Shown here: positions 9,930 to 51,314 of the stretch, one piece after another | Layout: each line of letters opens with the position of its first letter | Position numbering within the stretch: the first letter of the stretch is position 1 | Assembly: GCF_023380225.1 (NCBI RefSeq) | Contig: NZ_CP093362.1 | Location: forward strand, 620,001-684,000 | Reading direction: 5' to 3' | Source: Apilactobacillus apisilvae | GTDB taxonomy: Bacteria > Bacillota > Bacilli > Lactobacillales > Lactobacillaceae | Length of the DNA: 64,000 nucleotides | Made by a program: the position numbers and the translations under genes | The notes under the pieces: generated by a model | The model's input: the letters and a program-made list of their open reading frames with translations, nothing else | The model's database searches: none | What the model was told of the DNA's origin: nothing

Positions 9930-10646
9930 TTATTGATCACGTGTTTTCATTAAATAATGTTCCCAACTTTTCTTATTACCATTAAATGCAACTTGATTCA
10001 ATGATACATTAGAACCGTCAATATTCATGGAACTATTGTTACTAATTGATATAAAAGACGAACTAGATAGCTTATTTAAACTGAATAGACTAAGATACGA
10101 TTTGCCATTTTTTAAAAGTTTATTAAAAATATTTTCACTAGTATTAACGACTATATCACTATTATAATAATGATGAACTAAGTACAAAAATTTAGATAGA
10201 CTATTAATTTGCTTATTGGTTAAATTATTATTTGCCATTATTAAAGGAGGAATTGAACCATAATTTGAGCCAACTTCATTCGTAAAATTGGTTAATTGAC
10301 TTTTAATATTGCTTTGAGTACTAAAAACATGATAGGCACCTATTTGCATCCCTGATCCTTGACTACGACTAAAATTATCATAAAAGTTATCATCAGTATA
10401 TGTAGATCCCTGACTAGCCCTAATATAAACAAATTTTTGATTATCATTAGCTAAAGATACAAAATCAATATAACCATCATATTGGCTGACAAGAACACCC
10501 TTTACTGCGTAATTATTTTTAGTTTGATTATGGTAAATATTAATACTAATGTAAGTAAGCATAATTATTAATAAAATAATAATTATAAATATAAGTCTAT
10601 GATGTTTATTATTTTTTAAATGATATAATTCTTTTCTAGTTTGGAT
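9930..10646 (-). CDS. GH25 lysozyme-like membrane-anchored protein, catalytic residues lost; start codon non-canonical
   Basis: The fold is recognisable as glycoside hydrolase family 25 from GVLVSQYDGYIDF, YIRASQGSTYTDDNF, IGAYHVFS and PPLIMANNN. In active members these read GVDVS, ATEG and DIE; here the nucleophile and acid positions are Leu, Gln and Met-Ala-Asn, so muramidase activity is unlikely. Before the first ATG (10562) the frame stays open and encodes a basic stretch and a hydrophobic helix. AAGGTGAT at 10659-10652 stands in front of an in-frame ATC (10646) but no ATG, GTG or TTG, giving about 238 residues as a type II membrane protein. Either a rare start is used or the gene is decaying. 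No operon partners. Confidence 0.6.
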   Translation of the reverse strand: MQTRKELYHLKNNKHHRLIFIIIILLIIMLTYISINIYHNQTKNNYAVKGVLVSQYDGYIDFVSLANDNQKFVYIRASQGSTYTDDNFYDNFSRSQGSGMQIGAYHVFSTQSNIKSQLTNFTNEVGSNYGSIPPLIMANNNLTNKQINSLSKFLYLVHHYYNSDIVVNTSENIFNKLLKNGKSYLSLFSLNKLSSSSFISISNNSSMNIDGSNVSLNQVAFNGNKKSWEHYLMKTRDQ

Positions 10647-10735
10647 TGTAAATCACCTTACTTAATAAAAACTAATTTATAATTTATTATAAAACTACTT
10701 AAATAACTTGAATAGAACCTTTGTTTTCAATATAA

Positions 10736-26760: not shown

Positions 26761-27612
26761 CTAATTATTTAATTGGGCAACTGATTTCCTGTACTCTACA
26801 GGTGATTGGTTGCCTAATTTTGTTAATATTCGTGTATTATTCCAAAATTTGATATAATTATTCACACACCTAATGGTATCTGCTAAACCTTTTGGTTTAG
26901 CTTGTGTGTATATCATTTCAGTCTTTAGGCTTGAGTGAAATGATTCAATGATGGCGTTATCAGCTGGCGTCCCTTTACGGGACATACTTCTGATGGCGCC
27001 TTTTTTGCGTGCTAATTCAAAAAATTCACGCAAAGTATAAGTAGAACCCTGATCACTATGAATGATAGCACCACTTAAATAGCCTAATTGATTTAGTGTA
27101 TCTAATGCCAATTGGGTATTTGGATGATTAGAAATTTTATGAGCAATAATTTCCGAATTAAAACTATCCATAATTGTAGAGAGGTACAACATTTTATTTC
27201 CGCAAGGAATATAAGTGATATCAGTGGTTAATTTACGATTTGGTAAACTAATGTTCCAATCACGATTGATTATATTATCAAATTGTTTGAACGGATTACC
27301 AGGTCGATGAGATCTTTTACGTTTAATACGACACCCCCAATTGTATTTAGCCATAATTCTTTGAACTTTACTAACACTGCATTTTAAGTGCTTATTAATT
27401 AGTGCATGAATTTTACGATAACCATATAAAAACTTTGTTTTTATACATAGTTGTTGAATCTCCTGTTCAATCTGACTTAAATTAAAATGAGCTGCATGTG
27501 TTTTATGATAGTAATAGGTACTTCTAGATATATTGAGATACTGACAAATCCTAACTAAAGGTATTTTGGATGTGAAAGTATCGATTAATTTAATAGTAGC
27601 TTGATTTACCAC
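26761..27612 (-). CDS. IS3-family transposase OrfB (DDE integrase domain)
   Basis: Catalytic part of the transposase, 283 residues, with an HTH_21 segment (RSTYYYH, YGYRKIHALI) and an rve integrase core. The DDE triad is Asp131 (TTDITYIP), Asp187 (HSDQGSTY) and Glu223 (DNAIIESFHSSLKTE), with 35 residues between the last two as expected. It starts at GTG, overlapping OrfA by 7 bp in the -1 frame, and the -1 frame is open back through the slippery run, so it is probably made as an OrfAB fusion. No truncation is seen. Confidence 0.93.
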   Translation of the reverse strand: MVNQATIKLIDTFTSKIPLVRICQYLNISRSTYYYHKTHAAHFNLSQIEQEIQQLCIKTKFLYGYRKIHALINKHLKCSVSKVQRIMAKYNWGCRIKRKRSHRPGNPFKQFDNIINRDWNISLPNRKLTTDITYIPCGNKMLYLSTIMDSFNSEIIAHKISNHPNTQLALDTLNQLGYLSGAIIHSDQGSTYTLREFFELARKKGAIRSMSRKGTPADNAIIESFHSSLKTEMIYTQAKPKGLADTIRCVNNYIKFWNNTRILTKLGNQSPVEYRKSVAQLNN

Positions 27613-27911
27613 AGCCCTTCCATGATTAAATATTTTTTTATAACTTCAAGTTCTTCCTTCATTTGTTTAATTTCCATATCTTTTCTGACATCACTAGGTA
27701 GTTCTAAATTGCCTTTATTATATTTATATTGTTTGCCAGGCTTTTGATTCAAACGATAATAATCACCATTTCTTACATATTTCCGCCATGTATAAATTAA
27801 GCCGTCACTCTTTAAACCAAGTATTTTACAAATCTTTCTACCAGGAATACCTTCATTAAGAAGCCGAACGGCTTCTAGTTTAGTTTCATATGAATATTTA
27901 TTATTAGTCAT
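27606..27911 (-). CDS. IS3-family transposase OrfA (helix-turn-helix)
   Basis: DNA-binding subunit, 101 residues, with an N-terminal HTH (SYETKLEAVRLLNEGIPGRK, then ICKILGLKS) and a C-terminal coiled-coil, leucine-zipper-like stretch (MEIKQMKEELEVIKKYL). It recognises the element ends and, as a frameshift product with OrfB, forms the full transposase. GGAGGTGTTTTTTGT precedes the ATG. Confidence 0.92.
   Translation of the reverse strand: MTNNKYSYETKLEAVRLLNEGIPGRKICKILGLKSDGLIYTWRKYVRNGDYYRLNQKPGKQYKYNKGNLELPSDVRKDMEIKQMKEELEVIKKYLIMEGLW
27633..27639 (-). other. Programmed -1 frameshift site (A7) in the transposase
   Basis: On the minus strand the OrfA codons ATA-AAA-AAA contain the heptamer A AAA AAA. 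After a -1 slip the frame runs without a stop into OrfB. Confidence 0.7.
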
Positions 27912-27971
27912 ACAAAAAACACCTCCGAATTATATTATTTTACCAAATTAAAATAATACTTTTATCGAAAG

Positions 27972-28017: not shown

Positions 28018-28596
28018 CTACTTTTTTATTTTTTGCAAAGGTTTAACAATTATTGGAACAAAAATTCCTGACAAGATTGCTTCTATTAGGCCATTAGTTC
28101 CAGCAATACCTAAAAGGTAAGGCAATAAATCACTAGTATTAATATGATAGATGTTAAAAGAATTATTACGATAGAATAAATAAATTAGTGATAAAACTAA
28201 TATTGTATTAACAAGAGATCCAATAACTCCCGAAAATACCATTAATAAATTTTTATTAATTCTAAAATTTATTAATCGATGGTAAAAAATTCCACTAACA
28301 AATCCCACTAATATTCTGGGTAACACTGAAATCAAAGGATTTACTAAAACAAAAACTGCCAAAGGACTAGTTGGCCACCAAAAAGCACGAACAAATGTTA
28401 TTAGTCCCCATATAAGGCCAAGGATAGATCCCTCTTTACTTCCCAATAAAATTGCAGCAACTATTATAGTAATCGGAATTATTGTAATACTTAGCGGGCC
28501 TATCGGTATATTACCAATTCCTGGTATAGTTGTCTGTATTATAATTATAGCTATAAACATTGTAAGAATATTCATACGATAACTTTTATTACTAAT
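28018..28596 (-). CDS. ECF transporter S component (vitamin-binding subunit, possibly pantothenate or folate)
   Basis: A very hydrophobic protein with about six membrane segments, of the family that captures vitamins and docks to the EcfA-EcfA-EcfT module encoded 2 kb away. Visible are IPGIGNIPIGPLSITIIP, GSKEGSILGLIWGL and VLVNPLISVLPRILVG, a pattern seen in S components annotated as PanT; the ligand is a guess. The first ATG (28575) is 30 bases from the Shine-Dalgarno AGGAG. In front of it, ATT at 28596, nine bases after AGGAG, adds SNKSYR, so I take ATT as the start (192 residues). The stop lies in the IS-split terminator. Confidence 0.75.
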   Translation of the reverse strand: MSNKSYRMNILTMFIAIIIIQTTIPGIGNIPIGPLSITIIPITIIVAAILLGSKEGSILGLIWGLITFVRAFWWPTSPLAVFVLVNPLISVLPRILVGFVSGIFYHRLINFRINKNLLMVFSGVIGSLVNTILVLSLIYLFYRNNSFNIYHINTSDLLPYLLGIAGTNGLIEAILSGIFVPIIVKPLQKIKK

Positions 28597-28654
28597 TTTT
28601 AATCACTCCTAAAATTTATAATATATAATTATTATACACATTAAAAACAGTAAA

Positions 28655-50617: not shown

Positions 50618-50625
50618 TACGTATA
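50618..50625 (+). promoter_or_regulatory. Possible competence (com/cin) box upstream of the prepilin peptidase gene
   Basis: TACGTATA after a T-rich stretch differs at one base from the late-competence box TACGAATA used by ComX/SigX. It is 31 bp before the proposed ATT start, a fitting distance. Confidence 0.35.
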
Positions 50626-50648
50626 TTTATCTTGTAGGAGATGATAAA

Positions 50649-51314
50649 ATTCAAATATTTATTTTAATATTATTCAGTGCAATCTTGGGATCATTTATTG
50701 CACTAGCTGAATGCCGAACTAACCGTAATGAATCAATTATTTATCCAAGATCACACTGTGATTATTGTAATTACACTTTACAGTGGTTTGATTTAATTCC
50801 CATTGTTAGTTATATATTTTTAATGGGAAAATGCCGGGAATGTAAAAGAAAAATTAGTATTTCATTTTTTATGATTGAAATACTATCCATATTAATTAAC
50901 GTTCTTTTTTATTTGAAAACTAACAGTTTAATTTATGTCCCATTCATTTTATGTTTAATTTTTCTTTCATTACAGGATTTTCATAAAAAGTATGTTTCAT
51001 TGTATGCAATTATTATTTTATTAGTAATTGCAATTACAATTAATTATGATTTATTCAAAATATTAATTATTTTTTCTATTTATTTAGTTTTGACCATTTT
51101 AAATAGGTATGGAAAATTTATTGGAAGTGCAGATATTGATATTATTTGTATATGTGCGATAGTTTTTGATGTAAATACATTAATTAATATTGTCTTAATA
51201 TCATCTTCTTTATGTCTAATATTTTTTGTATATTTTAAAAACAAAGAAAATAAGCTCCCTTTTGTGCCATTTATTTTTGCAGGTATCATAATATCTATAT
51301 GTATACAAAAATAG
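50649..51314 (+). CDS. comC: Prepilin peptidase (A24, ComC/PilD-like), proposed ATT start
   Basis: Membrane aspartic protease that cleaves (and in some species methylates) the class III leader of competence pseudopilins. With the ATT at 50649 the protein has 221 residues, the N-terminal helix QIFILILFSAILGSFIAL, then four cysteines in CDYC...CREC, and active-site aspartates in LSLQDFHKK and GSADIDI. TAGGAG lies eight bases before ATT; the only canonical choice, TTG at 50685, would cut the first helix and has no Shine-Dalgarno. Divergent from rpsL; no other competence genes nearby. Confidence 0.8.
   Translation: MQIFILILFSAILGSFIALAECRTNRNESIIYPRSHCDYCNYTLQWFDLIPIVSYIFLMGKCRECKRKISISFFMIEILSILINVLFYLKTNSLIYVPFILCLIFLSLQDFHKKYVSLYAIIILLVIAITINYDLFKILIIFSIYLVLTILNRYGKFIGSADIDIICICAIVFDVNTLINIVLISSSLCLIFFVYFKNKENKLPFVPFIFAGIIISICIQK

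Follow-up and report, generated by a model that had tools for sequence, protein, structure and literature searches.

From which codon is the prepilin peptidase gene of Apilactobacillus apisilvae translated? In the window (the whole stretch of 64,000 nucleotides that was analysed, from contig NZ_CP093362.1), a comC-type gene, encoding the enzyme that processes the pilins of DNA uptake, is preceded by a Shine-Dalgarno (SD) sequence, and the codon at the proper distance from it is ATT, not one of the canonical starts ATG, GTG or TTG. The first-pass annotation had proposed initiation at this ATT and had suggested that start-codon proofreading could thereby keep a competence gene low. Both proposals were examined by comparison with the genus, the family and other genes of the same genome.

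Start region and product of the comC-type gene

The gene sits between two genes on the opposite strand, which we take from their proteins to be rpsL and rpoC. The proposed arrangement, TAGGAG followed after eight bases (ATGATAAA, 50641-50648) by an ATT in the frame of a complete A24 peptidase, was reproduced at exactly the same coordinates (Table 1), and the frame opened by this ATT encodes a protein of 221 residues with its stop codon at 51312-51314. Together with 50641-50645, TAGGAG reads GGAGATGAT, which is one base different from GGAGGTGAT. The ATG adjoining the SD, whose short frame was recovered as described, is most likely part of an extended SD rather than a start codon. Among the five other orthologues with AUU or AUC, ATG at this position was absent in loci L004, L014 and L016, and in L002 and L003 it was immediately followed by TAA.

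Table 1. Features of the window discussed in the text
Feature	Position	Strand	Basis or remark
Sequence similar to the -10 box of the competence sigma factor, TACGTATA	50618..50625	+	sequence
SD, TAGGAG	50635..50640	+	sequence; duplex of -10.1 kcal/mol for ATT 50649
ATG adjoining the SD	50641..50643	+	own frame of eight codons, then TAA
ATT start of the comC-type gene	50649..50651	+	sequence, alignment with relatives
comC-type A24 prepilin peptidase gene	50649..51314	+	221 codons and stop; Pfam, invariant residues
TTG, first canonical codon in frame	50685..50687	+	without SD; L of LGSF; rejected as main start
Probable ATC start, GH25 lysozyme-like gene (ORF 9933-10652)	10644..10646	-	relatives
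Probable ATT start, ECF transporter substrate-binding component (ORF 28021-28602)	28594..28596	-	relatives

The exact SD match comprised 5 nt only in the window, and 8, 8 and 7 nt in the congeners G010, A. quenuiae (G009) and A. ozensis (G012). When that stretch was shuffled 5000 times, an SD of at least 5 nt lying 6-10 nt 5' of an in-frame ATT, ATC or ATA appeared in 117 cases (2.3%). From the window sequence alone, a chance origin of the SD-ATT arrangement is unlikely, though possible, and the matter is settled by the relatives.

Just 5' of the SD, the motif CGTAWNT was present in 8/8 comC upstream regions examined (8 of 15 genomes). The streptococcal competence-promoter box is TACGAATA, and the element TACGTATA of the window, resembling it, could be a putative competence promoter element. 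In other Lactobacillaceae (loci L021, L022, L301, L315, L324, L328 and L329), comC begins with an ATG without SD a few bases 3' of a TTCGTC-like or TACGTA-like box, suggesting that leaderless competence mRNAs may be produced there.

The product matched the Pfam family A24_N_bact (PF06750) with 91.2 bits (cut-off 23), and Peptidase_A24 (PF01478) with 25.3 bits, slightly below the cut-off of 26.5, while the NCBIfam search of the protein gave no match. Two catalytic aspartates and a CxxC...CxxC pair are characteristic of A24 prepilin peptidases, and D110, D162 and the four cysteines were invariant in 18/18 aligned sequences. With ATT as codon 1, the A24_N_bact match begins at residue 8, and the domain would be trimmed if translation began at TTG (residue 13). 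Between G010 and G008, dN was 0.034 and dS 0.202 (dN/dS about 0.17), and between G010 and G009 the values were 0.137 and 0.735; by dN/dS, comC is under purifying selection and functional. No relative was found in a single-protein scan of genome contigs.

Start codons of comC in the genus and the family

Sixteen Apilactobacillus genomes were compared, including that of the window (G000), and comC was present in 15 of them, with the exception of G007 (genome 86% complete). The codon at SD spacing was ATT in G000, G008, G010, A. ozensis and A. xinyiensis (G014) and ATC in A. quenuiae, that is 6/15 genomes, with SD and spacing preserved in all six species. It was ATG in the other nine: G001-G006, which include A. 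zhangqiuensis (G005) and A. apinorum (G006), as well as A. waqarii (G011), A. kunkeei DSM 12361 (G013) and G015. The comparison of the 5' end in close relatives, proposed beforehand as a check, thus yielded five further species with ATT or ATC and nine with ATG at the SD-spaced position, and it lends strong support to translation from AUU.

In the alignment, the ATT of the window shares its column with the ATG of seven sequences of the A. kunkeei group; the ATG of G015 lies one codon and that of G006 two codons further in, meanwhile the ATT or ATC of the other five orthologues lies three codons further out. Relatives with an ATG at another aligned position had been named as a refutation, and those that were found do no damage to the proposal, all nine ATG codons being SD-spaced. 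In G010 (L002) the frame opens at ATT right after TAA, and the next canonical codon is found 85 codons past the anchor; in A. xinyiensis (L016) the first one is at +53. The first canonical codons past the anchor were TTG at 18 in A. ozensis and ATG at 6 in G008; A. quenuiae has a TTG at 23, preceded by a GTG at -6 that falls within the SD. Two of the six species have no ATG, GTG or TTG for more than 50 codons, and the set is therefore poorly explained by translation from TTG 50685, by an error in sequencing or by a frameshift out of ATG 50641. That AUU and AUC starts are found again at equivalent sites in the records of different species also makes a sequencing error unlikely.

In a survey of the family, 110/121 genomes have comC, and 105 of the 110 are outside Apilactobacillus. 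Of these non-genus orthologues, 91/105 were examined (7 + 24 + 60 loci), and four without a readable frame by the motif rule were dropped. Among the 87 readable ones, 75 have a canonical start with SD (at least 4 nt, lenient rule) and 11 a canonical start without SD; the remaining one (L271), whose frame is too short, has neither. An SD-supported ATT, ATC, ATA or CTG replacing the canonical start was found in 0/87. Fisher's test of 6/15 in the genus against 0/86 family orthologues with a canonical start gave 4e-6, a value that is only a guide given the kinship of the species.

In an unrooted comEC tree, the species with ATG fall into a single clade and those with AUU or AUC into two lineages, {G012, G014} and {G000, G009, G008, G010}; one change suffices for the split. 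Because the rest of the family is canonical, AUU was either acquired at the root of the genus, with a single later reversion, or acquired on two occasions.

Other genes with probable AUU or AUC starts

ORFs with an SD of at least 5 nt at ATT or ATC and no SD-supported canonical start were counted among 45 window ORFs having orthologues in the fetched regions. There were 3/45 in G000, 3/43 in both G010 and G009, and 1/27 in G012, against 0/40 in G015 and 0/38 in G011; the 37 ORFs compared in G006 included a single ambiguous case (ECF). Some other window ORFs lack an SD-supported canonical start and do contain a canonical codon without SD. The GH25 gene has ATT in G009 and G010, where the first 50 codons are free of canonical codons, and ATG at the aligned codon in G006, G011 and G015. 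For the ECF gene, ATT was also seen in G009 and G010 and ATG in G012 and G015; in G006 and G011 the start is ambiguous, because the same ATT is preceded, at a distance of two to three codons, by ATG codons nearer to the SD.

Elsewhere in G000, a LysR regulator has ATT in G000, G009, G012 and G014. Eight congeners have ATG at the corresponding alignment position, and so do all 14 loci not labelled Apilactobacillus among the 25 (of 42) that were listed. A helicase, which we take from its domains to be of the DinG/XPD type, has ATT in G000 and G010 and TTG in G011; in four additional stretches it was the sole AUU or AUC case, out of 76 ORFs for which orthologues were available.

The competence genes differed among themselves. 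For comGA, ATT after a long SD with no canonical start nearby was found in G012 and G014, and ATG in the other 14 genomes, while comFA and comFC have canonical start codons in the seven genomes examined. In 16/16 genomes (loci L079, L089, L092 and 13 more), comEC begins either right after the comEB stop or overlapping it, with no evident SD, the opening codon being ATT in 11, ATC in 2 (G008, G010), ATA in 2 (G006, G007) and ATA-ATT in G012, suggesting that translation could be reinitiated at a non-canonical codon after the comEB stop. In the first 60 codons of 11/15 comEC loci from other genera, no canonical start is supported by an SD either, and some of these loci have an SD-less canonical codon; comEC was therefore dropped as genus-specific evidence and is kept as weaker, secondary evidence. 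As expected, infC opens at ATT in 16/16 Apilactobacillus genomes.

Beside infC, seven genes are candidates for AUU or AUC starts by these comparisons, namely comC, comGA, comEC, GH25, ECF, LysR and the helicase, with the species varying from gene to gene. Five of the seven have ATG in close relatives, and these five are natural pairs for testing start-codon proofreading.

Two other arrangements were observed. For a gene 3' of the comG cluster (L067:3978-5045, L068:3972-5039, L072:3996-5051), the best SD-spaced codon in G000, G012 and G014 is CTG, a possible CUG start. An IS3-like two-frame transposase (window 26764-27645 with 27609-27929, both on the minus strand) is repeated, with more copies in L116, L127 and L129, and its second frame has no SD-supported start of its own.

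Frequency in the genome

A strict rule was applied to 464 kb of G000 (the window and 20 stretches; 31.4% G+C) with 369 distinct ORFs. It returned five ATT, ATC or ATA starts: comC, GH25, ECF, LysR and an ORF of 129 codons for which the Pfam search gave no match. The helicase does not pass, since an SD-less GTG lies upstream. The count of 5/55 for ATT, ATC or ATA against 13/426 for other codons (p=0.044) is a weak excess, some of the 13 being neighbours of the five and others copies of an insertion sequence. In the control genome G023 the corresponding counts were 2/45 and 5/371 (p=0.17), one of the two being a plausible ATT start. An elevated genome-wide rate in the genus is thus possible; an excess over G023 was not demonstrated by the sampling. 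One gene of G023 (L140:18932-19726, minus strand) looks ATT-started, with a signal-peptide-like N-terminus after the SD, and the AUU habit may extend beyond Apilactobacillus.

Initiation machinery and proposed mechanism

A pattern search of the 16 genomes for an altered initiator tRNA gave 25 matches in 14 of them, all with the anticodon CAU, and none in G005 and G007; sequences far from the pattern would be missed by it. The 16 IF3 sequences, compared by eye for alterations, had no striking change. With only the CAU anticodon found and IF3 of ordinary appearance, AUU is presumably read by the ordinary machinery through SD support. Taken with the comparison of starts, comC is very probably translated from the weak, SD-supported AUU at 50649 by the ordinary initiator tRNA, and is one of several such genes in the genus.

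In the mechanism that we infer, the SD would pair with the 16S rRNA tail and set AUU in the P site, where the initiator tRNA would pair with A and U, the third-base mismatch being tolerated, and formyl-methionine would come first. IF3 would disfavour this pairing, and the output per mRNA would stay well under that of AUG. In vitro, according to the accessible part of PMC10158994, the CAU initiator started a smaller share of the product at AUU as the IF3 level rose. In S. aureus grown in poor medium, non-canonical starts with extended SD yielded about 10% of what AUG gave (PMC13009471, available in part). It is by analogy with such other bacteria that low output and IF3 sensitivity would be expected of comC. 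The prepilin peptidase would be needed in small amounts, and a start of this kind, having arisen at several Apilactobacillus genes with comC among them, could persist over species divergence.

Alternative explanations

Several readings deny the AUU start altogether. Translation from TTG 50685 is what a standard gene caller would annotate, this being the first in-frame canonical codon, but it is very improbable: as had been claimed, no SD was found there and half of the first helix would be lost. Moreover its counterpart is missing in L002 and L016, the G010 and G014 orthologues, and the seven congeners of the A. kunkeei group have their ATG 12 codons upstream of its place. The ATG at 50641 with the AAAA run after it could feed the peptidase frame through a frameshift or an undetected indel, but zero spacing to the SD, together with its fate in the five relatives described above, makes this hardly credible. 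The mere loss of an ATG would look the same in a decaying pseudogene, which is equally far-fetched in view of the intact frame, the conserved aspartates and cysteines, the low dN/dS, and the SD and spacing kept in six species. After comparison with the relatives, these readings were rejected along with a sequencing error.

The other readings accept the AUU at comC and differ about its meaning. It is fairly likely that the start is real, carries no regulatory meaning and reflects drift, neutral or mildly deleterious, in which a weak start is tolerated because the enzyme is needed in small quantity. The presence of such starts in the unrelated GH25, ECF, LysR and helicase genes, the AT-rich genome and the variation of the third base among T, C and A between genes and species favour this. 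All six species of both lineages have kept AUU or AUC with no reversion to ATG within those lineages, but this is weak evidence against drift because ATG would need a transversion. A dedicated device, in which IF3-sensitive initiation would limit prepilin processing and confine DNA uptake to low IF3 stringency, is a rather doubtful alternative. The starts of comGA in G012 and G014 and of comEC throughout the genus fit it, and there is a precedent in Streptomyces sigR, whose GTC start is repressed by IF3 (available part of PMC5472188); on the other hand comGA is ATG-started in most of the genus, comFA and comFC are canonical, comEC is not special to the genus, and AUU or AUC starts are not confined to competence genes. 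Because unrelated genes of the same clade share such starts, tolerated drift is rated above competence regulation. Of the two first-pass proposals, the AUU start therefore stands by comparison, and competence-specific control is not supported. It is quite unlikely that the AUU and AUC genes, comC, comGA and comEC included, would follow IF3 stringency jointly and that weaker proofreading would open competence.

Comparison with known systems

Start prediction relies on ATG, GTG and TTG only, as stated in the available part of PMC5472188, so AUU- or AUC-started genes are truncated or mis-extended in annotation, and standard gene finders would misplace their starts in these bee- and flower-associated lactobacilli. 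One switch to AUU was counted among 61,358 reconstructed ancestral AUG starts (PMC5622118, accessible in part), a reconstruction that presumably rested on existing annotation. In the literature search, none of the titles among the best matches listed dealt with AUU initiation in lactobacilli or at a prepilin peptidase gene.

Like comC, infC has an AUU start after an SD. The product of infC is the proofreading factor itself, and the gene is autoregulated in E. coli, whereas comC encodes a membrane protease without such a loop. In E. coli pcnB, too, an AUU start reportedly limits translation; codon apart, gene and lineage are unrelated to comC. According to the accessible portion of PMC5472188, Streptomyces sigR has a non-canonical start with a long SD and is misannotated in available genomes; its codon is GTC and its repression by IF3 is experimental, whereas for the AUU of comC an effect of IF3 would be expected by analogy. 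In S. aureus, cvfC1 (AUU), ccpN (AUA) and citZ (AUA) combine non-canonical starts and extended SD with an output below that of AUG (PMC13009471, as far as available). They are different genes, and their starts were measured by ribosome profiling and reporters, whereas those of Apilactobacillus are deduced from sequence. The nearest comparison is comC of the other Lactobacillaceae, which belongs to the same protein family but begins with a canonical ATG, TTG or GTG in 86/87 readable orthologues.
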